Below are positions 7 through 19,395 of a stretch of DNA of 29,848 nt, piece after piece; within the stretch, counting starts at the first letter, position 1; each line of letters starts with the position of its first letter. Under the pieces are notes generated by a model that did no database searches, was not told the origin of the DNA, and saw only the letters and a program-made list of their open reading frames with translations. The position numbers and the translations under genes are program-made. Origin of the DNA: a virus; IMG/VR virus record IMGVR_UViG_3300037584_005912, positions 1 to 29,848 of that record; one strand, 5' to 3'.

Positions 7-360
7 ATGCCAAAACAATATCTAAAAAGACCAAGAATTTTAAATAACGACATGTACTTTGATGTCTTCGAAGAAAGAGGTGTAAAGTTCTTAAGCATCT
101 CCACAACACAACCGTTTGATGGGTTGCAAAATTATAGCATTGAGGTTTTAGATACTATTTATTGGAGTCATGAACACAAGCTGTTTAACCTTGCTTATAA
201 GTATTATAACGATTATTCTTATTGGTGGGTCATAGCATTAGTCAACAAGAAACCAACAGACTCTCATTACAAAATTGGAGATGAAGTATACATTCCTAGG
301 AATCCTGTTGGATTGGCAGACCTTTTAGAAAGCGGGAGAAGTAATGTCTCGGGATATTGA
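7..360 (+). CDS. 53: gp53-like / LysM-like baseplate wedge protein
   Basis: This 117-residue protein resembles T4 gp53-type baseplate wedge subunits. Such proteins help build the wedge around the tail hub and carry a LysM-like fold. The signature is 'YKYYNDYSYWWVIALVN' near residues 65-82, matching the family pattern of a Tyr-rich helix followed by a WW-x-I-A-x-x-N turn. It is followed by 'GDEVYIP', the usual closing strand of this fold. The first bases of the window (gaataa) end in TAA directly before this ATG, so an upstream gene probably ends here. The gene overlaps the next large virion-type gene by 17 bases, which fits a structural operon. Family assignment is by motif recall, and a LysM-type tail assembly protein is the alternative. 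Confidence 0.72.
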   Translation: MPKQYLKRPRILNNDMYFDVFEERGVKFLSISTTQPFDGLQNYSIEVLDTIYWSHEHKLFNLAYKYYNDYSYWWVIALVNKKPTDSHYKIGDEVYIPRNPVGLADLLESGRSNVSGY

Positions 361-3300
361 AAGATTCGGCAATGTTGGAGATTTTAAAACATATATTGAT
401 AGTTTAGCTAAATCAATTACCACCCCCATCTTCAGTAATCTTGATAAATCAAATTATAAGATTACTGGAGATGGACCACTAAAATACGTATATGATAATA
501 CTAGTCGCCCTGCTAGCATAGGCCACCCTATGTTTTTGAAATACTTAGGCGACATAAACAGTATTACACCAGAAAGAACTCTTCATAATTCTAATACCTT
601 TAATTTTAAAACAAATTTAGAAACTATAATAGATGATGGTATTAGCAGTCACGAAGATTTTAAGGATCTAAAGGCTCCAGCAAAGGTAAAACTAAAAAAA
701 GCCTTTAAAGGTGCCGGTGTCGATTCTTTGTTTGCAAATAAAGTTATTAGACAAGAGATTTTTGGTATCAATTTTAACGCATCTGATACCAGTATTGTGT
801 ATTTTCTACTAGCAAAATATGAAGTAGAAACAAGAGCTAGCAATAAAAAACTAATAGCAGATGTTATATTTGAATCCTTGATACTTACAGTCTATGATAA
901 TGCAGAAGAAGGGGGCTTGGATTTAACTCCCGGTTTTTGGGACATGTTTAAAGACGAAGCCGAACTTCTTGCTGAGGCAGCAGCATCTGGGAATATAGAC
1001 ACGGTTGCTCGTATGGCGAGTGCTGTTGCTCAAAATCAAGTAGTGGGCGATGGGGAGTTGACAGCCGGAGAGTACCTCAATTATGTGCAATGTGCTTTAT
1101 TCGCAGATATATTTGCGGAGGGATACTCAATGACAAATTACCCAACGGATGTAACAGGAAGAAAACCGGGCGAATCTCATTACAATAGACGCGTGTTTCC
1201 GATAACCATTAATGGTTCTAAGGGACATAAGCCAAACGATTTTATGAATCACCTTTTATATCCGAATAGCGTCAAGTCAAAGTTTAGCAATTACGATGTT
1301 CTCAAAGCCGCAAATAAAGACGCTAATATAACAAAAAATCGCAAAAGTCTAACTAAAACACTAAGCTTTATTGATGTTGTAACTGATCCTGATAGCGGTG
1401 AAACTTTTCTCAATGAAACGATTGTTGATAAAATCCAAGGTTTCACCGGCGGAGGAAATGTAACGGCCGGCAGTGTTAAGCAATATTTTAGTGCCACTGG
1501 GACTGCTGCTACCCAGTACATAAAATCTTATGTAGAGTACACTAGAAGAAAACTAATACTTGTTAGAAATGGACAAATTACCAATGCTGATTTTAAAACG
1601 GAATTTGGATCCGATGTAGCGACCATAACAACAAAACTTAATAATATCCTTCAAGCAAGAGATCGAGGTATAATCAACCAAGGAAGAATTTCTGAAGATA
1701 GCCCAGAGCTTGTAAATTTAAGCATAAAATTTAATGGTACCAACCCTTCTATGGCAAGAAAAGATGTCGAAGTTAGCCTTCAAATAAAACTCACAGGTCT
1801 AGATATGATGGACACAGTTATAGCCGGCGACGTCGATGCGAAAGACTCATACACAATCGAATCACTAATTGAATTTCCATATGTCAACCGTAAACCAAGG
1901 GCCATACCAGTCAGGAACCACTATGACCCCATGAGAAACCGGTTGAGGTTGAAAGTATCTGCAGTTGGTAGTGGAAACAATAGTGATTTAATTATTGACC
2001 TAACAACAATAGATCATTCAATATCGCGAGATTCTGCTACTGGTTTTGTTACTCTAGACGTAAACTACAGAGGCTTTTTTAATTCAGTTTTTTCAATGCC
2101 ACTCATGGATTGTTTAGCAGATGACACCATGTTCAATGATAGAATAAACAGATCTAAGAATATTAAAACTAAGCTTAATAAATATTACGATAATCCGAAT
2201 GCAACAACTTTGGAAGCCGCCCGAGACGAACTAAGAACTGATCGGACACAACTGGAAGCTGAGACGGGAAATATTAGTGGCTTGACCATATTGGACAGGT
2301 TGATGGCCAAAAAACGTTTTTATGAATATTCAATATCCGACTCCACAATAGCTTCTTTTGAGGCAACAGGCTTTTTCGATTATGGATATGTAGCTGATCT
2401 AAAGGCTGCTGGTACAAATTTAATAACCATTTCGCCATCTTTGGTAACCACAAACTCAGCGACCGGTGCACCTGCTACTTCAACTCCAAAAGATATTCAT
2501 GACATGGCAATAAGTGGATCCGACGAGCCACCAGATCCGGCTAATCAATTAAGCGGATATTGCGTTTACTTAGGTGATGTTGTAGATGAATTTGCAGACG
2601 CTCTTTATACAAAGGCTTCAAGTGGGTATACTGTTTACCCCAACCATCTAAAAAAATCGATTTCTATCGAAAACATGTTTACCTTACTAAGCTCGATTGA
2701 AATGTTTAATCCCGTCGATGGCGACAAAAGAGCAATATTTAATTTAGCTCAAATTCCTATAGATATTGGATTTTTCTCTAGATGGTTTGATCAAACAGTT
2801 ACTAAAAAGGGTGTTTCTTTCTTACCTTTCCAACAAGCAGTCGGGTCTTTGATCGAAAGATTGATTAATAATACTTTATTTGAAGTCTGTCTGGGAGATG
2901 CGATGTATAATGAGAAACCTCCCATACTTAGGACCGGATTTTTTCATGATTGCCGTAAATGGGAAAATGTAAATCCAACGGCGACAAAACCAGTTTTCAA
3001 TAATCCTCTAGAGGAAGTTTTAATGAATAGTTCTTACATAAAAGAAATCAACAATGACTGGATTACCAAAAATTCAATTATTTTAAAAAGAGATGCTAGT
3101 TTTAAAGTAAGCCCTCCGAAAACTGTAGACGGTAATGCAATACCATCTAATGAAGGAACGGTTTATTTTGTTGCCTACATGCAAAGACCATCTTTTAATT
3201 TTCACAAAGTTGGAGATTCCGGACGTGGATTTGATGATACAACACCCGAAATACATTATGGTAGAAAGTTTACCAATGCAAATTTTTTAAGCAATGTAAC

Positions 3301-3961
3301 ATTTACAAAAACAACTCAGCCGTTCTTAAGAGAATCCAGATTTGCAAATAACTCGGGCATGACATTGCTTTCCAACTTTTACGACTTAGATTTTTCTTTT
3401 AGCTCAAACGGTGCCAACACTTTATTGTACCCCGGAACGGCGATTGATTTTTACCTGAGGGATTGGACCAGTGCTCAAAAGTGGAACCCGCACATTGGAG
3501 GCAAAATCCCCGGCAGCACCGCATACAGAACCCCATCTCCTGCTCAAAAACTAGGTTTTGGAGGTTACTATATCGTTTCATCAGTCGATTACAAACTAGG
3601 TCCTGTACCGGAAGATTTTGAAATAAAAGTTTCCACTAAATTTATAGGCACAGATGCATTAGATGGACTTGGCATTGAGTCAGATACTCCAGCGACAGTA
3701 GGAGGTGCTACGGTGGACACGGAGGAAACTGATGGCCTTGAAGAGGATATAGATGGCGATGGCTCTAGTAGTACACCGGCAAAGACAATGAAAGAAAAGT
3801 ACGATGATGGAGAATTATATGTTTTAAAAAATGAAGTTCCCACTCTATTGAATGCGGAAACGTTAGAAAGCGATGCACGGCCGGATATTCCGGTTCTCAC
3901 TAAAAACGCAGACGGGACATATACTCCGGCTGGTAGTGTGAAAAAGTCAGAGCTGGAGTAA
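344..3961 (+). CDS. Large virion structural protein, possibly baseplate/hub associated
   Basis: This is a 1205-residue protein of unrecognised family. It starts inside the end of the gp53-like gene with a GGGAGA ribosome site, so it is translationally coupled to a baseplate gene. It has few cysteines and many Asn, Thr and Ser residues, typical of beta-rich virion proteins. Near residues 1065-1110 the run 'GGYYIVSSVDYKLG' followed by 'EIKVSTKFIG' resembles the closing beta strands of phage hub/tail proteins (G-Y-x-V-x-x-V-x-H-K pattern). A long acidic tail follows, containing one DxDxDG loop ('DIDGDG'), which could bind calcium. The structural role is inferred from position, size and composition; no catalytic motif is visible. 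Confidence 0.6.
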   Translation: MSRDIERFGNVGDFKTYIDSLAKSITTPIFSNLDKSNYKITGDGPLKYVYDNTSRPASIGHPMFLKYLGDINSITPERTLHNSNTFNFKTNLETIIDDGISSHEDFKDLKAPAKVKLKKAFKGAGVDSLFANKVIRQEIFGINFNASDTSIVYFLLAKYEVETRASNKKLIADVIFESLILTVYDNAEEGGLDLTPGFWDMFKDEAELLAEAAASGNIDTVARMASAVAQNQVVGDGELTAGEYLNYVQCALFADIFAEGYSMTNYPTDVTGRKPGESHYNRRVFPITINGSKGHKPNDFMNHLLYPNSVKSKFSNYDVLKAANKDANITKNRKSLTKTLSFIDVVTDPDSGETFLNETIVDKIQGFTGGGNVTAGSVKQYFSATGTAATQYIKSYVEYTRRKLILVRNGQITNADFKTEFGSDVATITTKLNNILQARDRGIINQGRISEDSPELVNLSIKFNGTNPSMARKDVEVSLQIKLTGLDMMDTVIAGDVDAKDSYTIESLIEFPYVNRKPRAIPVRNHYDPMRNRLRLKVSAVGSGNNSDLIIDLTTIDHSISRDSATGFVTLDVNYRGFFNSVFSMPLMDCLADDTMFNDRINRSKNIKTKLNKYYDNPNATTLEAARDELRTDRTQLEAETGNISGLTILDRLMAKKRFYEYSISDSTIASFEATGFFDYGYVADLKAAGTNLITISPSLVTTNSATGAPATSTPKDIHDMAISGSDEPPDPANQLSGYCVYLGDVVDEFADALYTKASSGYTVYPNHLKKSISIENMFTLLSSIEMFNPVDGDKRAIFNLAQIPIDIGFFSRWFDQTVTKKGVSFLPFQQAVGSLIERLINNTLFEVCLGDAMYNEKPPILRTGFFHDCRKWENVNPTATKPVFNNPLEEVLMNSSYIKEINNDWITKNSIILKRDASFKVSPPKTVDGNAIPSNEGTVYFVAYMQRPSFNFHKVGDSGRGFDDTTPEIHYGRKFTNANFLSNVTFTKTTQPFLRESRFANNSGMTLLSNFYDLDFSFSSNGANTLLYPGTAIDFYLRDWTSAQKWNPHIGGKIPGSTAYRTPSPAQKLGFGGYYIVSSVDYKLGPVPEDFEIKVSTKFIGTDALDGLGIESDTPATVGGATVDTEETDGLEEDIDGDGSSSTPAKTMKEKYDDGELYVLKNEVPTLLNAETLESDARPDIPVLTKNADGTYTPAGSVKKSELE

Positions 3962-3968
3962 TTAATAT

Positions 3969-5222
3969 ATGGCTAGACAATTTAATTCTAGAAATTATAG
4001 TAGTACTTTGTATAGATACTTTATGCGTAACAAATATCAATCTTTAGCTCATCACAAGAATGGTGGGCTTGGAGACAAAGTGATAAACGATTTTCACTTC
4101 GTTGAACGTCTGCACTACGGGTGCATTGATCACGAAAACACATCTGTGGTACCAGACCAAAGATACCTTGTTGATATTAACGGCGGTAGAGTGTTTGATT
4201 TTGTTGCTGACTCGTTTGCTTTAATGCGTCTGAATATGGAACAAGCCTTACAAAGAAATCTGATTTCTCAGAGAGGATTTGAACTCGCCAATTTAAATAT
4301 AAAAATGTCATACGAAGATCCTAAGTTGAAATATGGAGAATACCTAGGCGATATTCTCCAATTATACAACGAAACACACATACCAATTGTACTTGGTAAT
4401 AATAGTATAGCATCTTATAATGACTATGTCAACCATTTTTTTAAATTTATTTTAAATCAACCAAAAGATGTTCCTATAACCATGACAAGATGGATGACAT
4501 CAAACAAATCTTCTATCTTAGACACAGGTTTAGGTATTATGCTGGAGGATATGGGCTACGATGATGACCAAACAAAAATAAATAACATCATTGACCATCC
4601 TTGCTTTGGATACTTTAAAAACATTAGTCTTAACATGGGGTTTTCAATATCTCACCAGAATCCTAATATTATTGTAGGTGACTTAAGCTCTCCTGCAACA
4701 GAAACAATAAGATATTCATATGGTTTATTTAATTTAAAAGATATATTTTCTAAAAGATATATAAAAACAAATACTATAGATATAAATATTCTATATGATA
4801 TTATTAATATATATTATAATAAATATGTTTTGAAAAACCCTCAAACGAGAATCGTAATGAGGAAATGTGGCAAGACAGTCTCAGAGTTTGTCCAAAGAGA
4901 AAACATTCAAACAGATATCAGACCCCACACTCCTCTGCAGGAGATATATTTCTACGCTCAAATTAGAAACCTAGAAGACGGCATGCCTTTTGACCCAGAC
5001 AGAATGGGGCACATCCATAGTAAAGCAAAATATCTTTTAAAAAATGTTGACAAACCCTCAGCAATAAGTTATATTGATAATATATTCCGTGATCAACTTT
5101 GGAATAAAAATGGTGGCTTCCATGATTTGAAAAGAAGAATATTTCAAAATTCTGGGACATCAACAGAGGCACAGCGACAACAGACTGGAGGAGGTCCGTC
5201 TAGCAGTGGCTCGTCATACTAG
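3969..5222 (+). CDS. Hypothetical protein, probable virion component
   Basis: This 417-residue protein begins 7 bases after the large structural gene and ends at the ribosome site of the polymerase gene. I do not recognise its family. It is rich in Asn, Ile, Tyr and Asp and has no signal peptide or membrane segment. It ends in a low-complexity tail of Gln, Gly and Ser ('GGGPSSSGSSY'), as seen in some virion or neck proteins. Its context, the last gene of the structural block before replication genes, favours a structural or assembly role. That is inference only. A promoter-like sequence for the downstream polymerase lies within its last 180 bases. Confidence 0.5.
   Translation: MARQFNSRNYSSTLYRYFMRNKYQSLAHHKNGGLGDKVINDFHFVERLHYGCIDHENTSVVPDQRYLVDINGGRVFDFVADSFALMRLNMEQALQRNLISQRGFELANLNIKMSYEDPKLKYGEYLGDILQLYNETHIPIVLGNNSIASYNDYVNHFFKFILNQPKDVPITMTRWMTSNKSSILDTGLGIMLEDMGYDDDQTKINNIIDHPCFGYFKNISLNMGFSISHQNPNIIVGDLSSPATETIRYSYGLFNLKDIFSKRYIKTNTIDINILYDIINIYYNKYVLKNPQTRIVMRKCGKTVSEFVQRENIQTDIRPHTPLQEIYFYAQIRNLEDGMPFDPDRMGHIHSKAKYLLKNVDKPSAISYIDNIFRDQLWNKNGGFHDLKRRIFQNSGTSTEAQRQQTGGGPSSSGSSY
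5047..5075 (+). promoter_or_regulatory. Candidate internal sigma-70 promoter upstream of polymerase
   Basis: TTGACA at 5047-5052 and TATATT at 5070-5075 are separated by exactly 17 bases, the same architecture as the intergenic promoters of this window. It lacks the TG of the extended -10 (the bases are AGT). It lies inside the preceding gene, about 155 bases before the polymerase ATG, which has no promoter of its own. Confidence 0.45.
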
Positions 5223-5230
5223 GAGGACAA

Positions 5231-6418
5231 ATGCTATTCCAATTAATGGACAACAAAACCGACTGTGCCGGTACATACCTTAGCGGTCAATTCGTCTGGG
5301 ATAAAATACCAGATGGAATATCAAAAACGTGGTCATACTCTGATCACTTGTATAGCAGAGACATCGAATACGCCAATTTGCTGGTGTCTGGTAAGTCGAT
5401 AGACGCTGTTTGCCCTGAGCACCTAAGGGAGCGATGGGATTTCGTTAAAAACCTCATGAAAGCCCATTTCAAAGCTTTCTCGGCATCCAAAATTAACCTT
5501 GATGACGTTTGTTTCTACGACGTTGTGCCGAGAAAACAACTTCAACATTATTTTGAAGCTCGTAACGACATTACACAGTGGGTATTTGATTCCGTAGAGC
5601 AACCTGATAACTATAATTTTTTAAAACGGATACAGGCAGCCACACGAGAACTAAAACAATATCCCGTTAACCTAAATTCATTTGCTGTCTACTGTTCATC
5701 GGCTGATGACCCGAAAGCAAAACATCTTTACGATCAATTCGGCGAAAGCACTCCATATGTTGACTATGACATTTTCGGAACTGTGACGGGTCGACTCACT
5801 ACAAAGAAATACTCTTTCCCAATCTTGAATCTTAAGACGGAACTGAAGAGACATGTTAGACCAAACAACAGTGTGTTTCTTGAACTTGACTTCAACGCTG
5901 CTGAAGTCCGAACAATGCTTGCACTGCAAGGCCACAAACAACCTGAGGAGGATATACATGAGTGGAATATCAAAAACGTTTTTAAAAAAGAACTTAGCCG
6001 AGACAAAGCTAAAACAAAATTATTTGCTTGGCTCTATAACCCCGACTCCCAAACAATACAATCAGATTTCTACGATCGGGACAACCTTAGAGAAAAATAT
6101 TATGATGGAGAAAAGGTTCAAACCCCTTTCGGTAGATCGATCCCTGCTCCCTTTCGCAAGGCACTCAACTACCTATTGCAATCAAGCTCCTCGGACAACA
6201 CCATGGACAGGTTTTGCGAAATTTCTAACTTTCTTAGGGCAACACGATCCCATGTTGCTTTCGTTGTTCATGATAGCGTTGTCATCGACCTACACAAAGA
6301 TGACAGGAGATTAATTCCTGAGTTGGTTGAGATGTTCGGCAATACTAAACTTGGAAAATTTAAAGTCAATTGCTCTCTCGGAAAAAACTTGGGTTCAATG
6401 AAAGAGTTTAAGTGGTGA
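5231..6418 (+). CDS. Family A DNA polymerase, polymerase domain only
   Basis: This 395-residue protein carries the family A (Pol I/T7-type) core. 'TGRLTTKKYSFPILNL' (186-201) is the TGRLSS...PNLQNIP segment. Motif A is 'LELDFNAAEVR' (217-227) with catalytic D220. Motif B has R257, K261, F265 and Y269 at the spacing of Pol I R754/K758/F762/Y766. Motif C is 'HDS' (347-349) with catalytic D348. The usual Glu after that Asp is replaced by Ser. There is no N-terminal 3'-5' exonuclease or 5' nuclease domain, and fingers and palm are compact compared with the roughly 600 residues of Klenow. Phe at the 762 position predicts discrimination against dideoxynucleotides. AGGAGG sits 5 bases before the ATG. 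It could be a repair or accessory polymerase, since a DnaE-like gene begins at 29718. Confidence 0.9.
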   Translation: MLFQLMDNKTDCAGTYLSGQFVWDKIPDGISKTWSYSDHLYSRDIEYANLLVSGKSIDAVCPEHLRERWDFVKNLMKAHFKAFSASKINLDDVCFYDVVPRKQLQHYFEARNDITQWVFDSVEQPDNYNFLKRIQAATRELKQYPVNLNSFAVYCSSADDPKAKHLYDQFGESTPYVDYDIFGTVTGRLTTKKYSFPILNLKTELKRHVRPNNSVFLELDFNAAEVRTMLALQGHKQPEEDIHEWNIKNVFKKELSRDKAKTKLFAWLYNPDSQTIQSDFYDRDNLREKYYDGEKVQTPFGRSIPAPFRKALNYLLQSSSSDNTMDRFCEISNFLRATRSHVAFVVHDSVVIDLHKDDRRLIPELVEMFGNTKLGKFKVNCSLGKNLGSMKEFKW

Positions 6419-6606
6419 GTAAATTCTCAGTAGGCGATCTTGTGCAAGTCGTTGATTCGGTTACTACTGGATTTGTTCAGGGAGAAATTGGCCTTGTAAC
6501 AAGTGTTGAAAGAATGAGATCAAATCATTATATTTATTGGGTTTTATTCGGAAAAGAAAAGAAAGACGTCCCCATGTGGGACATTGAAATAAAAAAAATA
6601 TCATGA
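6412..6606 (+). CDS. Small SH3/KOW-like protein (tandem copy 1)
   Basis: A 64-residue protein starting at GTG (6412 or 6415) over the stop codon of the polymerase gene, so it is translationally coupled. It has the pattern 'FSVGDLVQVVD...GEIGLVTSV', the first strands of a small SH3/KOW-like barrel. The same layout recurs in the next two genes and in three others in this window. Function is unknown. Such small barrels often bind nucleic acid or partner proteins, but nothing here identifies a ligand. Confidence 0.68.
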   Translation: MVSKFSVGDLVQVVDSVTTGFVQGEIGLVTSVERMRSNHYIYWVLFGKEKKDVPMWDIEIKKIS

Positions 6607-6833
6607 TTGAAGTTGGAGACCTCGTCGTTGTAATTTATCCTTACATGGATTGGGACTGGCAGAGATATAAGATAGGCGACATTGGAATCCTCATGGAAAT
6701 TAGAGAATACTCCAGTTACACTGTGGCTAAAGTCAGACTATTTAGAACTGACATAATTGAAAGCATACCTTTAGATTATATTGCCTTACTGGGAGATAAA
6801 AATGGAAGTGGGAGATCTGGTGATACTGATTAG
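6603..6833 (+). CDS. Small SH3/KOW-like protein (tandem copy 2)
   Basis: A 76-residue paralogue of its neighbours, starting with ATG that overlaps the preceding stop (ATGA). The core reads 'IEVGDLVVVIYP', then 'YKIGDIGILMEI', with a closing 'IPLDYIALL'. The final roughly 11 residues run over the start of the next gene in another frame and look unstructured. Function is unknown; tandem paralogy and coupling are seen directly. Confidence 0.68.
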   Translation: MIEVGDLVVVIYPYMDWDWQRYKIGDIGILMEIREYSSYTVAKVRLFRTDIIESIPLDYIALLGDKNGSGRSGDTD

Positions 6834-7008
6834 ATCGCCATTTGAAGAAAAAAATATTTTTGGATATGTCAATGGGGATGTGGGATTGGTTAAAAAAGTA
6901 ATTCGACACGAAAGTGTTTTCGAGACATGTCTTGTGATTTTATTTAAAGACTTTAAAGAGTACCACATACCAAGTACGTACATGAAAACAATGGAGAAAA
7001 AATGTTAA
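6802..7008 (+). CDS. Small SH3/KOW-like protein (tandem copy 3)
   Basis: A 68-residue protein. The ATG at 6802 is chosen over an upstream ATG at 6781 because GGGAGA lies 6 bases before it and because it aligns 'MEVGDLVILI' with 'IEVGDLVVVI' of copy 2. The second strand pair is 'VNGDVGLVKKVI'. It overlaps the end of copy 2 by 32 bases and the start of the FtsZ-like gene by 7. It completes a run of three diverged paralogues. Function is unknown. Confidence 0.66.
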   Translation: MEVGDLVILIRSPFEEKNIFGYVNGDVGLVKKVIRHESVFETCLVILFKDFKEYHIPSTYMKTMEKKC

Positions 7009-7805
7009 TGGTTGGTCTCGGCAATGCCGGCAAAAATATTGTAAAGCTGTTTAAGCCTCACACAAAAAATTATAAAATTATTGTTCTCGACGAAGATGAG
7101 GGGATACCTAAACAAGATTCTGTTGAGAAATATGATGAGCAACCAATCAAACTTACACAGAAGGGACTCAAATCTCACTCTGAAGCCATTCTATTTGTCT
7201 GTGGAGGTGGTAAGATAGCTGGAGCATCCTTACGTGTTCTACAGGCTCTGGAGAGCTTTAAAACAACAGTTGTTTATATCGTACCTGATCTTGAATTTGC
7301 ATCGACCAGAGAACAAAAGAGACATAGAGTCCACTTTGGGGTATTACAAGAGTACACCCGCTCAGGTAAGATAGATAAGATGGTTATTTTAGATAACAAA
7401 ACCCTGTTCACACATGCAGGCACAGGTACTGCGTTAAAATATTATGATAAAGTAAATTATTTTATTTATTCCACATTTCAGAATTTGTTATACTGTCAAC
7501 ATGTTGATCCTGACTTTGGCAAGTTGCATGAAAAAAAAGATATCTCTAGGATATCGACAATAGGAATGGGAAAATTAGATGGAGAAGAAAATCTGCTCTT
7601 TGAACTTGACAACATTACTGAAACATGCTATAATATTAATATAGATGAGGAAGACCTTGACAACGATGAAGGTATCATACCGAAATGTCAACAACTAGTT
7701 CGAGACAATAAAGAAAAAAATAGAGATACTTCATTTGCTATATGGAAATCTAGTGAAGGAAACCATTACTACTCTATCCACTCTACTCATTTTATTCAAG
7801 ACTAA
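7002..7805 (+). CDS. Divergent FtsZ/tubulin-superfamily protein
   Basis: This 267-residue protein reads like an FtsZ/tubulin GTPase domain. 'MVGLGNAGKNIV' (3-14) matches the T1 loop GxGGxGxN. 'VCGGGKIAGASL' (66-77) sits where GGGTGTG (T4 loop) belongs. 'VVYIVPDLEF...EQKRHRVHFGVLQE' (90-117) matches the strand and helix after T4. 'MVILDNKTL' (127-135) matches the IPND(K/R)LL segment. 'DPDFGKL' (169-175) aligns with the T7 loop NxDFxDV. The Thr residues of T4 are absent, and the second T7 acid is Lys, so nucleotide hydrolysis may be altered or lost. Phage tubulins (PhuZ, TubZ) place or partition DNA, and a similar role is an inference. The usual C-terminal domain is short. GGAG lies before the ATG at 7002. 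Confidence 0.62.
   Translation: MLMVGLGNAGKNIVKLFKPHTKNYKIIVLDEDEGIPKQDSVEKYDEQPIKLTQKGLKSHSEAILFVCGGGKIAGASLRVLQALESFKTTVVYIVPDLEFASTREQKRHRVHFGVLQEYTRSGKIDKMVILDNKTLFTHAGTGTALKYYDKVNYFIYSTFQNLLYCQHVDPDFGKLHEKKDISRISTIGMGKLDGEENLLFELDNITETCYNINIDEEDLDNDEGIIPKCQQLVRDNKEKNRDTSFAIWKSSEGNHYYSIHSTHFIQD
7606..7634 (+). promoter_or_regulatory. Internal consensus sigma-70 promoter
   Basis: TTGACA (7606-7611), a 17-base spacer, and TGC-TATAAT with the hexamer at 7629-7634: a full consensus match with extended -10, inside the FtsZ-like gene. It would transcribe the small gene at 7818 independently. Confidence 0.55.
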
Positions 7806-10595: not shown

Positions 10596-10665
10596 GGGAG
10601 TACGGTTGAAACCCTGCTTACCTTAGTGAATTAACACAATAAAATAAATAACCTTGGAGAAAATT
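10596..10665 (+). promoter_or_regulatory. Long 5' leader of the SSB mRNA, candidate autoregulatory site
   Basis: About 70 bases separate the predicted start from the SSB ATG, against 12-25 for most promoters here. The first half can fold (GGTT/AACC near 10604-10613 with outer GTA/TAC), and the second half is an A+T-rich single-strand-like run (aattaacacaataaaataaa) before GGAG. T4 gp32 represses its own translation through a leader with a structured 5' end and an A+U-rich run, so a similar control is inferred. Confidence 0.35.
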
Positions 10666-11439
10666 ATGGCTATTAATATTGAAGCAATGCGTGCTAAACT
10701 TAACGCATCTAAAAACGGTGGAAAACAATCATCAAACAAAAGCACCATGTGGCGACCAAAAGCTGGTGACCAGATGATCCGTATCCTCCCAACTGCGGAC
10801 GGAGACCCGTTCCGTGAATTTCATTTCCACTATAATGTTGGAAAAAACCCTGGAATTTATTGTTCCAAACGTAATGATGGTGGCGAATGTCCTATCTGCG
10901 ACTTTGCGTCAAAACTTTGGCGAGATGGAGTCGAGAACGATGATCAAAACCTCAAAAACGAAGCAAAGAAATTGTTCGCTCGAAAGCGTTACTACTCACC
11001 TGTTCTAGTTCGTGGAATGGAAGGTGAGGGTGTAAAAATCTGGGCTTATGGTAAGACTGCTTATGAGACCCTTTTGGGTTATGTATTGGATCCTGACTAT
11101 GGAGACATTACTGACGCTCAAACTGGTACAGACATTAAATTGACTTACACAATCCCAGGCACCCCTGGCTCCTTCCCAAAAACTGGACTTCAGCCTCGTC
11201 GTCGTCCGTCTGTCCTCTGTGACGATGCGATTGCTGACTGTCAAGATTTGCTAGACTCAGTACCTGATATTGACAACCTCTTTGAGGTAAAGTCCGTTGA
11301 AGATGTACAGGCTCTGCTGGATGGTTATCTGTCCTCCGACTCTTCGGCAGAGTCCTCTTCAAGAGAGACTCAGAAGTATCAAAAGAAAACAGGTGATGAT
11401 GTAGATAAGGCTTTCGCAGCGTTCATGTCTGAAGAATAG
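10666..11439 (+). CDS. 32: gp32-like single-stranded DNA-binding protein
   Basis: A 257-residue protein matching the T4 gp32 type. The basic N-terminus (1-27) would be the cooperativity region. The OB-fold core begins with 'WRPKAGDQMIRILPT'. The zinc ligands H53/H55, C66, C75 and C78 appear in 'FHFHYNV...YCSKRNDGGECPIC', equivalent to the H...C...CxxC of gp32. The Ser-rich linker ends in an acidic tail ('GDDVDKAFAAFMSEE'), which in gp32 contacts replication and recombination partners. It coats ssDNA at the replication fork and during recombination with UvsX, encoded just downstream. The start at 10666 has GGAG upstream; an earlier in-frame codon at 10654 falls on that ribosome site. An intrinsic terminator follows. 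Confidence 0.92.
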   Translation: MAINIEAMRAKLNASKNGGKQSSNKSTMWRPKAGDQMIRILPTADGDPFREFHFHYNVGKNPGIYCSKRNDGGECPICDFASKLWRDGVENDDQNLKNEAKKLFARKRYYSPVLVRGMEGEGVKIWAYGKTAYETLLGYVLDPDYGDITDAQTGTDIKLTYTIPGTPGSFPKTGLQPRRRPSVLCDDAIADCQDLLDSVPDIDNLFEVKSVEDVQALLDGYLSSDSSAESSSRETQKYQKKTGDDVDKAFAAFMSEE

Positions 11440-11669: not shown

Positions 11670-12776
11670 ATGACAAAGGCAGGAAAGATCGACATCAATG
11701 CGATGAAGAAATTTGTCAACAAAAAAGTTGGGCTAGATATAGCACATGACTTGAATAAAGACAATCCTACCGAAGTCAAAGAATGGATTCCAACTGGTTC
11801 ACGCTGGTTGGATTCTATCGTTTGCCGAGGTAAGATGGCTGGTATTCCCGTTGGGAAGATCACCGAGCTTGCTGGTCTTTCATCGGCTGGTAAGTCTTAC
11901 ATGGCTTGTCAAATTGCTGCACAAGCACAAAAAAAAGGACATTGCGTTGTCTACTTTGACGCCGAGTCCGCAATCGACCCCTTGTTCCTTGAGAACTCCG
12001 GCATCGATATTAATAATAGTTTCTTGTACATCCAAGCAGTTTCAGTAGAGAAAACCTTGGAAACAATCGAGGATTTAATGAGTCAATATCCAGAGACACA
12101 GTTTTTGTTTATCTGGGACTCAATTGCAGCAACATCTTCTGAAAAAGACTTAGAAGGTGACTTTAATCCTCAATCATCAATGGCGGTAAAGCCTCGGATC
12201 TTTGCGAAAGCATTCCCGAAACTCACTATCCCATTGGCGAATCAACAATGCACCCTACTGTTGATCAATCAACTTAAGACGAACATTACTTCAAACGTCG
12301 CAGAAGCCATGACAACACCTTTTGTTGCTCCGGGTGGAAAGGCAATCGAGTACTTCTGTTCGCTTCGTATTTGGCTTACAAAGCGTAAAGCAAAAGCCTC
12401 TTACGTCACAGATCCAACTGGTCTTAGGGTCGGTTCTGAAGTGAAGGTTAAGGTTGAAAAGTCCCGTTTCGGGTCTGAAGGTCGCACATGTGGCTTTAAG
12501 ATTCTCTGGGGCAAAGACGTTGGCATCCAAGATGAAGAATCGTGGCTTGAAGCATTAAGAGCATCTGGCTCTGATCGTTTTAAACCCGGTGCTTGGAACA
12601 AAATTTACGACCGCAATGGTAAAGAGTATAAGTTCCAAAGATCCAGCTGGACTAAGAGGCTCCAAGACAAGGAGTTTCGATCAGTTGTGTTTGATATCAT
12701 GGATGAAGAAATCATTAGAAAATTTGAGTCTGAAGGCAAGAACTTTGGTCTCGAAGGAGAATCCGAAGAAGCTTAA
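11670..12776 (+). CDS. uvsX: UvsX/RecA-like recombinase
   Basis: A 368-residue strand-exchange ATPase. Walker A is 'GLSSAGKS' (69-76). Walker B is 'FLFIWDS' (145-151) with D150. The RecA-type 'VVYFDAESAID' (93-103) carries a probable catalytic Glu (E99), and 'LLLINQLKTN' is the L2-adjacent sensor segment with its Gln. It ends with an acidic tail, as in RecA and UvsX. It forms a filament on ssDNA coated by the SSB and drives recombination-dependent replication and repair. The ATG follows the lipoprotein stop directly, with GAGGAG inside the end of that gene as ribosome site. A strong terminator follows. Confidence 0.93.
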   Translation: MTKAGKIDINAMKKFVNKKVGLDIAHDLNKDNPTEVKEWIPTGSRWLDSIVCRGKMAGIPVGKITELAGLSSAGKSYMACQIAAQAQKKGHCVVYFDAESAIDPLFLENSGIDINNSFLYIQAVSVEKTLETIEDLMSQYPETQFLFIWDSIAATSSEKDLEGDFNPQSSMAVKPRIFAKAFPKLTIPLANQQCTLLLINQLKTNITSNVAEAMTTPFVAPGGKAIEYFCSLRIWLTKRKAKASYVTDPTGLRVGSEVKVKVEKSRFGSEGRTCGFKILWGKDVGIQDEESWLEALRASGSDRFKPGAWNKIYDRNGKEYKFQRSSWTKRLQDKEFRSVVFDIMDEEIIRKFESEGKNFGLEGESEEA

Positions 12777-12867: not shown

Positions 12868-13608
12868 ATGAAACTTACAGAAGCAAAGCTGAAACAAATG
12901 ATCAAAGAAAGTCTTTCCAAAAGGCAAGCAATGGCTGCTGACATTAATACCTCTGGTCTTCCAATGGGTACATACTCAGCACAGCATTATGCTAATGATC
13001 CAATAGCCGACTATCTTGAACGTGGGAGAATAATAAAAAAATTATTTCATCAACATGCCGACCACGCGTTCATGGACACTCTTGTTACAGTGCACTACAG
13101 AGACTTGGCAGACCTCCCAAGGTTTAAGGCAGAAGTAACCTCTCGTGATGAACTCTCTTGTGTCGCCTATAAATCAGGAGAAACCTTTAAGTTTGGTCAC
13201 CCATTAGGACAAGCCGGAGTTGGCATTGCAGTTAAAGGTAGAATAACACTCTTGACAAACGATGCCGGTATGATGGTCTCAGGCCGTGGAGAAATGTACA
13301 CAAATCAGCGTCCTGAAAGAACAAAGTCATCTGGAGCCAACAAGGGAGTCGCAGTGGTTCCAAGCATCTACGATATTGTTAGTGCTAATTCAGCGTATGT
13401 TTTAGACAACGAAGACTGGAACCCTTCAACCAGCGATGTTAGAGTAAATGAAGCCCTAGTAGACAACTGGAGAATCTATGCCTATGTTGTCGAAAGCGAG
13501 GAAGCTGAAGCGTACGTTCGAAATCTGATAAGGGGCAGCCTTATTGATACTGGTAGAGTTGTTTCCTCTGCGGAGTTCGGCCTAAGAATAAAAAAGTTTG
13601 AAAGATAA
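12868..13608 (+). CDS. Leader-peptide protein of unknown function, possibly capsid-packaged
   Basis: A 246-residue protein starting 'MKLTEAKLKQMIKESL', the shared leader of this window. ATG 12868 is preferred over the TTG at 12853 because GGAG lies before it and because it aligns with the other leaders. After the leader I recognise no domain. A central region 'GVGIAVKGRITLLTNDAGMM' looks like a beta hairpin. The protein stands alone between a terminator and a promoter, so it needs its own transcription start, and no sigma-70 site is visible. An ACTATTTAT element lies 29 bases before the ATG, as it does before the gene at 23813. Both I-K-E/S and L-T-E/A fit the T4 prohead-protease cut rule. 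Packaging and ejection are inferred. Confidence 0.6.
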   Translation: MKLTEAKLKQMIKESLSKRQAMAADINTSGLPMGTYSAQHYANDPIADYLERGRIIKKLFHQHADHAFMDTLVTVHYRDLADLPRFKAEVTSRDELSCVAYKSGETFKFGHPLGQAGVGIAVKGRITLLTNDAGMMVSGRGEMYTNQRPERTKSSGANKGVAVVPSIYDIVSANSAYVLDNEDWNPSTSDVRVNEALVDNWRIYAYVVESEEAEAYVRNLIRGSLIDTGRVVSSAEFGLRIKKFER

Positions 13609-13660: not shown

Positions 13661-14611
13661 ATGAAAAACGTTATTATTATTGACGCGTTGAACATGTTTC
13701 TACGCTCTTATGTGATTAGCCCTCACTTAAATAAAAAAGGGTGGCCTGTAGGAGGCACCATTGGCTTCCTAAAGTCTTTACAGAAGGTTGCTAGGGACTT
13801 TGACGCTGATGAGATTATTGTCGCTTGGGATGGCCATGAGGGCTCCGCAAGACGACGTTCAATGAACAAGGACTACAAAGGTGGTCGCAAACCGGTGAGA
13901 TTCAATCGTAGAATGGTTGAGATCCCTGAAGACAAACAGGAGGCTAACAAAGGCTTTCAACAAGTAAGGCTGATGGAGTACCTCAACGAGATGCCTGTTA
14001 TACAACTTGTAGCAGATTTTACAGAAGCAGATGATATCATAGCACTTGTAATTAACCACGAGAGATATGCTGGGTGGAAGAAGACAATCATATCTTCAGA
14101 CAAAGACTTCTTTCAGTTATGTCGAGAAGACGTGCAGATCTATAGACCAATACAAAAAAAGATTGTTACAAGGCAAACGGTCATCGATGAGTTTAAGATC
14201 CACCCCAACAACTTTGCTCTCGCAAGAGCAATCGCTGGTGATTCCTCAGACAATTTACCTGGAATCAAAGGAGCAGGTCTCAAGACAATTGCCAAGAGAT
14301 TCCCGTACTTGATCAGAGAGGAAGAATTCACAACGGCTGACATCATCAGAGATTGTGCCATGAAAGGTAAAAAATTAAAAATTCATGAAAACATTCAATC
14401 TAATGAAAAATTAATAAAAGATAACTATGCGATTATGCAACTGCAATATCCCAACATACGACCGATGAATAGAGAAATTGTCAAGAATGCAATTAACGAC
14501 TTCGAACCGTATTTTGACAAAATAAAATTTTCTCAAATGTTAGCCGAAGATGACGGTCTTTCGCTAAATTTTAATGATTTACAGACTGTTTTTAGAAAAA
14601 TAAAAAGATAG
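13661..14611 (+). CDS. 5'-3' exonuclease / flap endonuclease (RNase H-like)
   Basis: A 316-residue FEN-family nuclease with an N-terminal PIN-like domain. 'IIIDALNMFLRSY' carries the first metal-binding Asp (D8), and 'IIVAWDGHEGSARR' (about 52-65) supplies the next. 'DFTEADDIIA' (about 118-127) and 'IISSDKDFFQL' (about 140-150) complete the acid cluster. 'GDSSDNLPGIKGAGLKTI' (about 192-209) is the helix-3-turn-helix that grips DNA. It resembles T4 RNase H and Pol I 5' nuclease, removing RNA primers and flaps during lagging-strand synthesis. The phage family A polymerase lacks this domain, so the activity is supplied separately. It stands alone between two promoters. Confidence 0.92.
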   Translation: MKNVIIIDALNMFLRSYVISPHLNKKGWPVGGTIGFLKSLQKVARDFDADEIIVAWDGHEGSARRRSMNKDYKGGRKPVRFNRRMVEIPEDKQEANKGFQQVRLMEYLNEMPVIQLVADFTEADDIIALVINHERYAGWKKTIISSDKDFFQLCREDVQIYRPIQKKIVTRQTVIDEFKIHPNNFALARAIAGDSSDNLPGIKGAGLKTIAKRFPYLIREEEFTTADIIRDCAMKGKKLKIHENIQSNEKLIKDNYAIMQLQYPNIRPMNREIVKNAINDFEPYFDKIKFSQMLAEDDGLSLNFNDLQTVFRKIKR

Positions 14612-14676: not shown

Positions 14677-16032
14677 ATGAACGATTTAACATCGAACGAA
14701 ACCTTTGTAAGGTTTGGAAAAAATTTCCAAGAAAAACTATGCCAACTTATGCTTGAAGACAGGCCCTTCTTTGATCAAATCATGGAAGTTCTAGATATCA
14801 GCTTTTTTCAAAGCAAATATCTTCAAGTATTTGCACAGACGCTCATCAACTACAGAAACAAATACAACACTCATCCAAATTCAGAAGTGATGATGTCGTT
14901 GTTGAGAACTGAACTCAATCATCATGATAAAGCCACCGCACAAGCGGTACGGGAGTTTTATGCTCGTATCCACACATCGGATGGCGTAGAAGAAGCTGCG
15001 TTCATCAAAGACAAGGCTATCGACTTCTGTCGTAAGCAAGTATTAAAGGGGGCTATGATCAAGTCTGCATCCCTCCTCAAGTCATCTTCATTTGAAGAAA
15101 TTGAGAAAGTGATCAAGGAGGCCTTAGTTCTTGGAACAGACAACAACTTTGGACACGACTTTCGCAAAGATTTGCTTAAACGTTTTGAACTGGTTTCACG
15201 AGATCCAACTTCAACTGGTTGGCCACGAATGGATGAGATTGTTAAGGGAGGCCTTGGAAAGTCAGAGTTGGGTGTTGTTGTCGCTCCAACTGGTGCTGGT
15301 AAGTCTATGGTGCTCGTGCATCTCGCAACTCAAGCAATCCTTCAAGGCAAGACTGTTGTCTACTATACGCTCGAACTTAAAGATACGGTGGTCGGTCAAA
15401 GATTTGATTGCTGTATCACCGATGTTCCTTTGCAAGAGCACAGAGAAAGACAAAAAGAAATCATAACAAAAATCAAAGATCTTGAAGGTACTCTAATTAT
15501 TAAAGAGTATCCAACAAAGTCTGCATCTGTTCAGACTCTCAAGAACCATATCGAAAAACTTCGCAAGCGTGGTATAGAACCTGATATGGTTCTTGTTGAC
15601 TATGCTGATTTGCTGAGACCAGTGAGGTCATCAAGCGAGAAGAGACATGAACTTGAAGAGACCTATGAGGGACTGCGTGGTTTAGCTCAAACATACGAAT
15701 TTCCAGTTTGGACTGCATCTCAAACTAATCGCGGAGGACTTAATGCAGAGGTTATTACAATGGAGGCAATATCTGAAGCATTTAACAAATGCTTTGTCGC
15801 TGACTTCATTTTCTCTCTTTCACGAACAGTTCAAGACAAGCAAGCAAACAAAGGAAGGCTATTCGTTGCTAAGAATAGGAACGGACCTGACGGTCTTGTA
15901 TTTGACGCTTTTGTTGATTGGTCCACAGTCTCAATCAAAATTTTAGACAGAGATGAGACGGCTGAAAAAATGCAGACAACAGCAGAGCAAATGCAAATGC
16001 TAAAAGATAAATATGCAAAAATGGGGCAATAA
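14677..16032 (+). CDS. dnaB: DnaB/gp41-type replicative helicase
   Basis: A 451-residue protein with a helical N-terminal domain (1-150) and a RecA-like motor. Walker A is 'APTGAGKS' (203-210), followed by 'YYTLELKD' (229-236) with catalytic E233. 'MVLVDYADLL' (304-313) is Walker B, and 'TASQTNRGG' (346-354) is the H3/H4 sensor with Q349. It unwinds DNA 5'-3' on the lagging strand as a hexamer. It is somewhat shorter at the N-terminus than bacterial DnaB and closer to T4 gp41. GGAGG precedes the ATG, and its stop overlaps the RNR start (TAATG). No primase gene is visible in the window. Confidence 0.93.
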   Translation: MNDLTSNETFVRFGKNFQEKLCQLMLEDRPFFDQIMEVLDISFFQSKYLQVFAQTLINYRNKYNTHPNSEVMMSLLRTELNHHDKATAQAVREFYARIHTSDGVEEAAFIKDKAIDFCRKQVLKGAMIKSASLLKSSSFEEIEKVIKEALVLGTDNNFGHDFRKDLLKRFELVSRDPTSTGWPRMDEIVKGGLGKSELGVVVAPTGAGKSMVLVHLATQAILQGKTVVYYTLELKDTVVGQRFDCCITDVPLQEHRERQKEIITKIKDLEGTLIIKEYPTKSASVQTLKNHIEKLRKRGIEPDMVLVDYADLLRPVRSSSEKRHELEETYEGLRGLAQTYEFPVWTASQTNRGGLNAEVITMEAISEAFNKCFVADFIFSLSRTVQDKQANKGRLFVAKNRNGPDGLVFDAFVDWSTVSIKILDRDETAEKMQTTAEQMQMLKDKYAKMGQ

Positions 16033-17960
16033 TGGAAGCATCATCAACTTACACTCTCGAAGAAAGAGAGTACTTTAGAAAATTAACACAGGAGAGTAGC
16101 AGAATGAATTTGGAAAAAGAGATCTTGTCGGATATAACGGTCCACATGAAGTATGCAAGATATCTCGAAGATAAACAACGTCGAGAAAATTGGGACGAGT
16201 TAGTGACTCGCAATATGGAGATGCACATTAAAAAGTTTCCACACATTGAAACACAAATTAGAGAAAATTATAAGATGGTATTTGACAAAAAAGTCTTACC
16301 CTCAATGAGAAGCATGCAGTTTGGAGGTAAGCCTATTGAGGTATCTCCCAACCGTGTGTTTAATTGTGCATTTGCCCCTGCTGATGATCCTCGAGTATTC
16401 GGAGAGATCATGTTTTTACTTTTAGGTGGAACTGGTGTTGGATATTCTGTGCAAAAACATCACGTCGATAGTTTACCCGAAATCCATAGACCCTCAGCGA
16501 AAAGAACAAGAAGATTTTTAGTTGGGGACTCAATTGAAGGCTGGGCTGATTCTGTAAAAGCGTTAGTGATGTCATACTTTAAAGGTACATCACGACTACG
16601 TTTTGACTTCTCAGACATCCGTCCAAAAGGTGCGAGACTAGTTACCTCGGGCGGAAAGGCACCCGGCCCACAACCACTTCGCGAGTGCCTAGTAAAAGTA
16701 GAGGGAATCTTAGATGCTAAAGAAAATGGTGACAAACTCACTCCTATTGAGGTGCATGACATCATCTGCCATATTGCGGATGCGGTTCTCGCTGGAGGTA
16801 TCCGTCGTGCTGCTCTCATTTCTTTGTTCAGTGCTGATGATGAAGACATGCTTTCGGCCAAGTCAGGGGCATGGTGGGAACTCAACCCGCAAAGAGGAAG
16901 AGCAAACAACTCTGTAGTCATAATGAGACACAGAATTGACGAGCCAACTTTTAAAAACATTTGGAAGAGAGTCGAAGAGTCACGCTCCGGAGAGCCTGGG
17001 TTTTATTTTTCTAACGATAAAGAGTGGGGATGTAACCCTTGTTGCGAAATAGGTCTCCGACCTTTTCAGTTTTGCAATTTGACAGAGATTAACGTATCTA
17101 ATGTTCGAACGCAAAAAGAGTTAGAGGAAAGAGCAAAAGCTGCTTCTTTCATTGGGACCCTTCAGGCATCTTACACTGACTTTCACTATCTTCGTCCTAT
17201 TTGGCAGAGAACAACTGAGAAAGATTCTTTGATTGGAGTTTCAATGACGGGTATTGCCTCTGGTGGAGTTCTCAAGCTTGATCTTAAATCAGCCGCTGAT
17301 CAAGTAAAGATTGTTAATAAAAAAGTAGCAGAGCAAATTGGCATTAAGCCCGCAGCAAGAACCACTTCTGTAAAGCCTGCAGGCACAACATCGCTGACAC
17401 TTGGAACTTCAAGCGGTATCCACGCGTGGCATAACGACTATTATATACGCAGATTACGCGTAGGAAAGAATGAGGCTATCTATTCATATCTCGTCAATAA
17501 CCTGCCTGAGTTGGTCGAGGACTGCCGTTTCCGACCACATGACACTGCTATCCTTTCTGTTCCTCAAAAAGCTCCTGAAGGGGCAATAACACGCCACGAA
17601 ACAGCACTTGATTTGCTGGAGAGAGTAAAGAAAGTTTCTAATGAATGGATTAAGCCCGGTCACATTGATGGCAACAATACACACAATGTTTCTGCGACCA
17701 TTACAATCAAAGATGATGAGTGGGAAACAGTTGGAGATTGGATGTGGATTAACAGAAATGTTTACAATGGATTATCAGTTTTGCCACACGATGGTGGCAC
17801 CTATGTACAGGCACCTTTTGAAGATTGTGATAAAGAAACTTACGAAAGAATGCTTGAATTGGTAAAAAACGTTGACTTAGACCTAATTACAGAAGTTACA
17901 GATGAAACTGATTTAAGTGGAGAAATCGCATGCAGCGGTGGATCCTGTGAAATTTTTTAG
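16032..17960 (+). CDS. nrdJ: Class II (adenosylcobalamin-dependent) ribonucleotide reductase
   Basis: A 642-residue RNR that makes deoxynucleotides using B12 as radical source. 'VFNCAFAPADD' (about residues 107-117) carries the first redox Cys, and 'LLLGGTGVGYSVQ' follows. 'NPCCEI...FQFCNLTEIN' (about 334-352) holds the thiyl-radical Cys with the C-N-L-x-E signature and its redox partner. 'TTSVKPAGTTSLTLGTSSGIH' is the phosphate-binding loop region. The C-terminal 'CSGGSC' (C634, C639) is the reducing pair, with the CxxxxC spacing of monomeric RTPR-type class II enzymes. No small subunit or activase is present, as expected. It is about 100 residues shorter than the Lactobacillus enzyme. It implies a host that makes or imports B12. 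Confidence 0.93.
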   Translation: MEASSTYTLEEREYFRKLTQESSRMNLEKEILSDITVHMKYARYLEDKQRRENWDELVTRNMEMHIKKFPHIETQIRENYKMVFDKKVLPSMRSMQFGGKPIEVSPNRVFNCAFAPADDPRVFGEIMFLLLGGTGVGYSVQKHHVDSLPEIHRPSAKRTRRFLVGDSIEGWADSVKALVMSYFKGTSRLRFDFSDIRPKGARLVTSGGKAPGPQPLRECLVKVEGILDAKENGDKLTPIEVHDIICHIADAVLAGGIRRAALISLFSADDEDMLSAKSGAWWELNPQRGRANNSVVIMRHRIDEPTFKNIWKRVEESRSGEPGFYFSNDKEWGCNPCCEIGLRPFQFCNLTEINVSNVRTQKELEERAKAASFIGTLQASYTDFHYLRPIWQRTTEKDSLIGVSMTGIASGGVLKLDLKSAADQVKIVNKKVAEQIGIKPAARTTSVKPAGTTSLTLGTSSGIHAWHNDYYIRRLRVGKNEAIYSYLVNNLPELVEDCRFRPHDTAILSVPQKAPEGAITRHETALDLLERVKKVSNEWIKPGHIDGNNTHNVSATITIKDDEWETVGDWMWINRNVYNGLSVLPHDGGTYVQAPFEDCDKETYERMLELVKNVDLDLITEVTDETDLSGEIACSGGSCEIF

Positions 17961-18242: not shown

Positions 18243-18533
18243 ATGGAATTTAAACCATTTAACAAGCATTTGTGGATTAAACCACAAGAAGAAAAAGAAA
18301 ACAAAGAAGACCCTTTGTTTGTCATGCCCGATGAGTACAAACCACCAAAGTCCCCTTATGTGATAGGCGAAATCATGGACATGGCTGAGGATTGTACAAT
18401 CGATCTTTTACCGGGAGAAACAGTAATAGTGGAAAGATCTACAATTCAAGAAATAAAAGGCAATTTCGAAACTATTTACGTGGTTAAAGAAAACTATGTT
18501 TATGGGAGATTGTTTGATGAGACTAACGAGTAA
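18243..18533 (+). CDS. groES: GroES/gp31-like co-chaperonin
   Basis: A 96-residue protein; ATG 18243 is chosen for GGAGG upstream, and an earlier in-frame start falls before the predicted transcription start. The GroES plan is visible: 'FKPFNKHLWIKPQEE' is the first strand, then a mobile-loop region (about 20-38), and 'VIGEIMDMAED' is the G-x-V/I strand. 'LLPGETVIVERSTIQEI' matches V-x-x-G-D-x-V-x-F, and 'IYVVKENYVYGRL' the closing strand. Like T4 gp31, it would cap host GroEL for folding phage proteins such as the major capsid protein. Cyanophage and other marine phage genomes carry similar genes. Overlaps the next gene by 17 bases. Confidence 0.78.
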   Translation: MEFKPFNKHLWIKPQEEKENKEDPLFVMPDEYKPPKSPYVIGEIMDMAEDCTIDLLPGETVIVERSTIQEIKGNFETIYVVKENYVYGRLFDETNE

Positions 18534-19395
18534 AAAATTAAAAGGATTAATTCTTGAAGTCCTGTCCGAAGAAAGAGAAGTCAATCATCTCGAAGAAGCC
18601 AAAATGGATGAATTAACGGAATTATGCTTTCTAGGTAGAGATGGACCGCCCACCAAAGCTAAACAATCAACCCACACACTCGCTACATGTAAATTGCGAG
18701 GTGATAAATATTATTTAAAGTTTACTGAAAATTTTCACTGGATGAGCAAAACAGATAGATCAATGCAGCTAGCAGTTGAATTCCTTGCTTACAAAATTTA
18801 TCAGCTTTATCCGTCTAACGCACCGGAAAATATTGAAATTGTTTCAGATCCATCTCAAAAAAGAATTGGACTTGCAACAAGAGAAGTTAAAGGCGTCCCC
18901 GGACGAAGTGTAGATTTCAAGCAGTGGGTTGATTCGATTTCTGGTGGTGCTATGGTTGATATATTTTTAGCGAACTGGGACGTCAAGAATACAAACAATT
19001 TTGTTGTTGACACTGAAACTAATATCGCGTCTAGAGTAGATCCAGGTGGTGCCCTTACTTTTCGTGCACAGGGTGGTAGAAAGGGAGATAACTTTTCACC
19101 AAGAGCAGGTGAACTAAATACAATGACAGATCCATCAGATCGTAGAACTTCTGGGTTTTTGTTGTCCGAAGTTGACACCAAGAAAGCTGCTTCTGCATTC
19201 CTATCTGTTGAGTGGAACCAGATTTATAACACCATAGGTGAAGCGTACTCAGAGGTTGAAAAAGAACTGATCAATGCTGACTTGTCTGATCAAGTTGGAG
19301 CTTGGAAACAGGAAGTATCAGAAATTGTAGAAAAATTAAGAACAAGACATGCTGATGTAAAAGAACATTGCGAGTATGTCATGACGCAACCTTGA
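18517..19395 (+). CDS. HipA/PI3K-like kinase-fold protein with shared leader
   Basis: A 292-residue protein starting 'MRLTSKKLKGLILEVLSEE', a version of the shared leader; ATG 18517 is preferred for that reason and for GGGAG upstream. 'KYYLKFTEN' (64-72) offers the ATP-binding Lys (K68). 'QLAVEFLAYKIYQL' (84-97) has a helix Glu. 'DIFLANWDVKNTNNFVV' (148-164) has D155 and N160/N161, as in the catalytic loop of HipA and PI3/4-kinases. 'RVDPGGALTFRAQG' (173-186) has the metal Asp D175. It could phosphorylate host proteins or lipids after ejection, or act in head assembly. The kinase call is by motif and order; substrate unknown. It overlaps the groES-like gene, so it is co-expressed. Confidence 0.6.
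   Translation: MRLTSKKLKGLILEVLSEEREVNHLEEAKMDELTELCFLGRDGPPTKAKQSTHTLATCKLRGDKYYLKFTENFHWMSKTDRSMQLAVEFLAYKIYQLYPSNAPENIEIVSDPSQKRIGLATREVKGVPGRSVDFKQWVDSISGGAMVDIFLANWDVKNTNNFVVDTETNIASRVDPGGALTFRAQGGRKGDNFSPRAGELNTMTDPSDRRTSGFLLSEVDTKKAASAFLSVEWNQIYNTIGEAYSEVEKELINADLSDQVGAWKQEVSEIVEKLRTRHADVKEHCEYVMTQP

Follow-up and report, generated by a model that had tools for sequence, protein, structure and literature searches.

The window, by which we mean the whole stretch of viral DNA that was analysed (29,848 nt; positions 1 to 29,848 of IMG/VR record IMGVR_UViG_3300037584_005912, whose assembly consists of this one virus record), carries a gene for a protein of 267 aa, P0001, downstream of a DNA polymerase gene. 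The features used in the text are as follows.

5231-6418, + strand, family-A DNA polymerase domain protein (polA), 395 aa, the constant upstream neighbour (PF00476, 4e-9; phrog_17, 3e-17)
6412-6606, 6603-6833 and 6802-7008, + strand, three small SH3/KOW-like ORFs in a row, separating the tubulin-fold gene from polA
7002-7805, + strand, predicted tubulin/FtsZ-fold protein P0001, 267 aa (ORF call; AlphaFold2 with Foldseek/VIA; conserved family)
7008-7037, + strand, T1-like glycine loop MVGLGNAGKN, residues 3-12 (conserved glycines)
7200-7223, + strand, T4-position loop CGGGKIAG, residues 67-74 (register from PhuZ and FtsZ profile alignments)
7347-7367, + strand, signature of the family where H5 ends, QEYTRSG, residues 116-122; no other element is as conserved (H5 is 102-121 in the model)
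7386-7400, + strand, end of S6 and IPN equivalent, ILDNK with Asn132 (conservation; in register with FtsZ)
7440-7457, + strand, start of H7, YYDKVN with Tyr148 and Asn152 (conservation; profile-alignment register)
7503-7526, + strand, T7 equivalent VDPDFGKL, residues 168-175 (acid counts; DSSP of the model)
10654-11439, + strand, gp32-like single-strand DNA-binding protein (PF08804, 6.6e-16; phrog_1192)
11670-12776, + strand, UvsX-like recombinase (phrog_97, 9e-59)
13661-14611, + strand, 5'-3' exonuclease (PF02739, 4.5e-27)
14677-16032, + strand, DnaB/gp41-like replicative helicase (phrog_19, 5e-78)

The ORF at 7002-7805 is intact, with an ATG start and GGAG just 5' of it, and its first 7 nt are shared with the small ORF before it, which is an arrangement typical of translational coupling. 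The protein contains GLGNAGKN (residues 5-12), CGGGKIAG (67-74), ILDNKTL (129-135) and DPDFGK (169-174). The preliminary description of this DNA had read these as T1-like, T4-position, IPND-like and T7-like segments in the order of FtsZ, and all of them were found in P0001 in that order. Because they are kept by 25 close relatives in IMG/VR (62-88% identity to P0001, single-protein search) and by a family of 145 members, we believe that these sequence motifs are not due to chance.

AlphaFold2 was run without templates. The first model, based on the 24 closest sequences, was already tubulin-like (pLDDT 70, pTM 0.73), and it was replaced by a deep-alignment model because its C-terminal domain was poor. 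With the 145-sequence alignment, the pLDDT was 95.3 and the pTM was 0.92, and all five models were above 94. The two-domain tubulin fold with the central helix H7 is present in this model, and both domains were matched by known structures (residues 1-267). Foldseek against the PDB gave 293 matches at E <= 0.001, of which the best 50 were all FtsZ, TubZ or CetZ, and the best was FtsZ 1fsz (7.6e-11). In the VIA alignments, the Z scores were 23.8 for CetZ 3zid (247 residues, 2.9 Å), 22.0 for FtsZ 2r6r, 21.7 for TubZ 4ei7 and about 20 for tubulins, and they ranged from 23.8 to 19.8 across about 250 of the 267 residues in all of the best 50. The FtsZ/tubulin-like identity first proposed for P0001 was therefore upheld, and the structural comparison recovered the tubulin/FtsZ fold, not a plain Rossmann dehydrogenase. 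It is almost certain that P0001 has a tubulin fold, and by this predicted fold it is a member of the tubulin/FtsZ superfamily.

Profile comparisons gave independent support that is modest but real. The family profile scored 42.4 against the profile of phiKZ-type PhuZ, where the maximum of the null was 23.6 (100 column shuffles). The score against the FtsZ profile was 25.8 with a null maximum of 26.5, and it probably fell within the null because the FtsZ profile was shallow. The best profile match in the PDB was FtsZ, in register at S6-H7, with an E of 0.26, which is weak and not significant alone.

With P0001 alone, searches of Pfam, PHROGs and PDB sequences returned nothing useful. Weak matches to elongation factor P and dihydropteridine reductase were set aside, as were weak DEAD-helicase matches. 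The cut-off of the curated tubulin family PF00091 was not reached: P0001 had no match, and 19 of the 145 members matched weakly (best E 0.0058). The family itself is large. A profile search found 47 relatives in IMG/VR, and profiles of divergent branches found at least 595 and 421 confirmed IMG/VR stretches. The working alignment, from which all conservation figures are taken, holds 145 sequences, mostly 25-82% identical to P0001, and family members are 264-298 aa long. No relative was found by tblastn of P0001 and three divergent members against 50,697 named phages, and two pattern scans of GTDB bacterial and archaeal genomes found no family member, so within the reach of these scans the family has no cellular members. 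In the literature, of which our coverage was incomplete, we found no account of this tubulin-fold family.

The next conserved gene downstream of polA is the tubulin-fold gene. When loci were fetched by polA alone, the tubulin-fold gene was present in 75 of 80, and in the remaining five the contig ended at most a few hundred bases from polA. Its start codon lies -16 to +30 nt from the polA stop in 112 of 187 distinct loci; in the clade of the window, one to three SH3/KOW-like ORFs (copies of about 190 nt) are inserted between the two genes. The distances of the polymerase and the tubulin-fold protein were strongly correlated (Mantel r 0.90; maximum of 500 permutations 0.14), which indicates that both genes are inherited together. 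An operon neighbourhood with polA is not proof of a physical partner. Downstream of the tubulin-fold gene is a replication block of gp32, UvsX, 5'-3' exonuclease, DnaB helicase and class II ribonucleotide reductase.

In contigs of 114-193 kb, the tubulin-fold gene is single-copy, a T4-type gp23 capsid was found in 11 of 11 and a contractile sheath in 10 of 11. It is a core gene of a large, uncultured T4-like phage lineage. A canonical tubulin/FtsZ partner was sought in the same genomes and none was found, and no family-B polymerase was recognised in the long contigs. HMMs for the gp45-type clamp and the gp62-type loader subunit matched nothing in ten long contigs, a weak negative in which divergence may hide these proteins, and this leaves room for another processivity factor.

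The polymerase has features of its own. With 395 aa, it has no room for a 3'-5' exonuclease, and its motif C is VHDS, not VHDE, which is conserved across the lineage.

The side of P0001 that would hold a nucleotide is well conserved. In the T1 loop, G5 is kept in 99% of the 145 sequences, G7 in 100%, A9 in 94% and G10 in 97%. Asn132 (98%) aligns with FtsZ Asn165 and tubulin Asn206, residue 148 (Y, F or H in 97%) with FtsZ Phe182 and tubulin Tyr224, and Asn152 (99%) with FtsZ Asn186 and tubulin Asn228. The FtsZ and tubulin equivalents of these three positions are guanine-contact residues. By alignment register, the base-contact residues 132, 148 and 152 thus appear to be kept. Arg109, in gap-free register with FtsZ Arg142, is Arg or Lys in 92%. 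We believe that a nucleotide is probably bound, and some members may not bind it because Lys71 and Asn12 are not universal. The kept T1 loop and base contacts would also fit a GTP-driven protein with other catalytic residues.

The side that would hydrolyse the nucleotide and build a filament is largely gone. The T3 loop, which contacts the gamma-phosphate in tubulin/FtsZ GTPases, is absent: strands S2 (25-31) and S4 (61-67) are only 29 residues apart, with no S3-T3-H3. The T4 signature [SAG]GGTG[SA]G is replaced by GGGKIAG in P0001 and G[SAG]GK[IV][SA]G in the family; G68 is kept in 100%, and Lys71 stands where FtsZ has Thr108. The T4 loop without Thr, remarked on earlier in this one protein, is true of the whole family, with Lys at that position in 69% of the 145. 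Among the same sequences, a T7 acid was found at position 171 in 40, at position 174 in one and at both in none. Of the earlier remark that the second T7 acid is Lys, the loss of the acid stands (D or E at 174 in 1/145), whereas the Lys itself is not conserved (22%). DSSP shows no helix from H7 (149-167) to the strand at 184-190, and therefore no H8. The final strand is 255-262 and P0001 ends at 267, with no H11 and no C-terminal tail; about 5 residues follow S10, and the FtsZ-type C-terminal linker and the FtsA/ZipA-binding peptide are absent.

Because T3, T4, T7, H8 and H11 all depart from those of the known proteins, P0001 does not qualify as a GTPase of the FtsZ, TubZ or PhuZ type by the features that define these. 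It has been shown for tubulin, FtsZ and phiKZ TubZ that protofilament subunits touch through loop T7, through S9 and through the base of H8, and that a rearrangement of T3 is needed for protofilament assembly (PMC3678025). Since the T7 acids, H8 and T3 are lost, a canonical hydrolysing head-to-tail filament is unlikely. Loss of the acids alone does not exclude a polymer, as the single catalytic mutant D190A of PhuZ still polymerises into stable GTP-bound filaments (PMC4244570). We consider it very likely that P0001 does not turn over GTP. The idea in the preliminary description that the protein may bind a nucleotide and not hydrolyse it is supported by the loss of T7 acids across the aligned family and is extended by the predicted absence of T3 and H8.

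The most conserved element lies elsewhere. Q116 and R120 are invariant in 145 of 145 sequences and S121 is kept in 99%, giving the family form QEY[AT]RSG, which is not a known tubulin motif. R183 is kept in 90%, and I184, T186, L202 and Y210 in at least 90%. In the tubulin fold, the C-terminal end of H5 is on the face opposite the nucleotide, and the Q116/R120/S121 patch is predicted on that side. Invariance of this patch across proteins of 25% identity suggests that it may serve a constant partner or substrate.

We tentatively believe that P0001 is a minimal tubulin-fold protein that holds a nucleotide without turnover and works together with the family-A polymerase of the phage as an adaptor. 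A former GTPase filament protein would have been reduced to a nucleotide-bound adaptor and retained for its partner. By prediction and alignment, the pocket has been kept (T1 glycines, Asn132, aromatic 148, Asn152 and the basic residue at the FtsZ Arg142 position), and what makes a GTPase filament self-activating has been lost (T3, the T4 signature, both T7 acids, H8 and the C-terminal tail). The nucleotide would be bound without turnover. The operon suggests that the protein may be an adaptor for the polymerase encoded just upstream, which it could contact through the Gln116/Arg120/Ser121 patch at the end of H5, opposite the nucleotide. That P0001 works with the polymerase or the replisome is about as likely as not. 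A more specific form, in which the fold was turned into a constant accessory subunit of the replicase, such as a factor that lends processivity to a bare family-A polymerase domain or loads it, is rather doubtful. We know of no described system in which a tubulin fold is an accessory subunit of a replicase.

Two other explanations, a decoy FtsZ and a static scaffold, take up roles suggested in the preliminary description (capping or poisoning of filaments, positioning of phage DNA), and we regard both as unlikely. P0001 could be a decoy FtsZ whose nucleotide face docks on the conserved bottom (T7) face of host FtsZ and stops host division during infection; having no active bottom face of its own, it would cap or poison the filaments of the Z-ring. 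A kept pocket side with a lost catalytic side is the asymmetry expected of a filament cap, and several phages make FtsZ inhibitors, for example, Kil of lambda (PMC3961180), Hdi of T5 (PMC10714956) and Icd of P1 (PMC11897509). However, those inhibitors are peptides or small proteins, and the accounts of them do not mention an FtsZ fold; T3, part of the subunit interface, is missing from P0001; and its most conserved patch is predicted on the face opposite the nucleotide. A single-copy, lineage-universal gene tied to polA also resembles a gene of the replication core more than one for host takeover, and a replication role is more likely than an FtsZ poison because of the operon link to the DNA polymerase. 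The protein could also be a static scaffold, comparable to a PhuZ spindle that does not turn over, whose non-dynamic nucleotide-bound filaments or rings would support the replication site or position phage DNA. The replication block around the gene and the stable GTP-bound filaments of catalytically dead PhuZ (PMC4244570) fit such a scaffold, but the parts for protofilament contact and assembly (PMC3678025), namely T7 acids, H8 and T3, are gone here, and the H11 and C-terminal tail of PhuZ have no counterpart.

That P0001 is still a nucleotide hydrolase, with other residues reaching the nucleotide of its neighbour, is quite improbable. Candidate residues exist in Gln116 and Arg120, which never vary in the alignment, or Arg183, whereas the lack of T3 and H8 speaks against subunits stacking head to tail in the usual way. 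Least of all do we believe that P0001 is an NAD(P)-type Rossmann regulator with a superficial likeness to FtsZ. An N-terminal GxGxxG and weak Pfam matches to TrkA_N and saccharopine dehydrogenase point that way, but GxGxxG is all that is held in common: both domains of the model match tubulins with Z of 20-24 over about 250 residues, and no dehydrogenase is among the best 50 fold matches.

Known phage tubulins (PhuZ and TubZ) are GTP-driven filaments of a few phage groups. PhuZ and the phiKZ-type TubZ resemble P0001 in being phage-encoded, of the tubulin fold and of the replication phase, with similarity in T1 and the T4 region above the null. In contrast, PhuZ keeps T3 and the LDxxD acids of T7 (8/8 sequences), both of which the P0001 family lacks, and has 312-336 aa, compared with 267 aa. 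PhuZ also has a C-terminal H11 and a tail used in the filament (PMC3678025), which are absent in P0001. PhuZ comes from nucleus-forming jumbo phages, whereas the present family is found with T4-type gp23 capsids on contigs of 114-193 kb with no named relative. Bacillus TubZ of type III plasmid partition is similar in structure (Z 21.7 to 4ei7); it has about 400 aa, an H11 tail and an intact T7.

Bacterial and archaeal FtsZ gave the best Foldseek matches, is colinear in T1, IPN and H7 and likewise ends soon after S10, but P0001 has no GGGTGTG, T3 loop, NVDFAD, H8, H9 region, C-terminal linker or conserved peptide. Archaeal CetZ had the top structural score (3zid, Z 23.8); however, the compared CetZ structures are cellular proteins of 330-360 aa at about 15% identity, and the catalytic loops are altered in P0001. 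Among viral proteins, the first model was best matched in fold by BFVD A0A6J5RW92 (5e-7), "FtsZ Cell division GTPase" of an uncultured Caudovirales phage. It is also virus-encoded and FtsZ-like, but with 452 aa and 11% identity it is a different protein.

To the phage tubulins is added a large family whose gene is part of the core of an uncultured T4-like lineage and whose fold persists without T3, T7 acids and H8. If confirmed, this would show the use of the tubulin fold without its motor cycle and would tie it to DNA replication, instead of or besides cytoskeletal movement. The family can be tested by mutation and biochemistry because hundreds of homologs exist.

Other genes of the window were also observed. 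Two further SH3/KOW-like ORFs lie at 20695-20940 and 29269-29487, so that five are alike in the window (GDLV...G.[IV]G). A class II (B12-dependent) ribonucleotide reductase, ThyX and a UvdE-type UV endonuclease are encoded at 16032-17960, 20007-20723 and 28057-28995, respectively, and this set perhaps reflects a sunlit aquatic habitat. The ORFs at 344-3961 (1205 aa) and 3969-5222 (417 aa), whose products had no Pfam or PHROG match, are conserved with a gp53-like baseplate gene and polA. At least eight ORFs that otherwise differ from one another (12868-13608, 18514-19395, 23813-24382, 24385-24834, 24834-25514, 25525-25980, 26454-26894 and 26979-27869) begin with nearly the same peptide, M[KRNQ]LT..KLKQ[IL]I[KN]E, and most of them have an I-x-E/L-x-E site about 14 residues in. 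This peptide resembles the T4-type capsid-targeting sequences that a gp21-like protease cleaves, and the products of these ORFs may be packaged internal head proteins.
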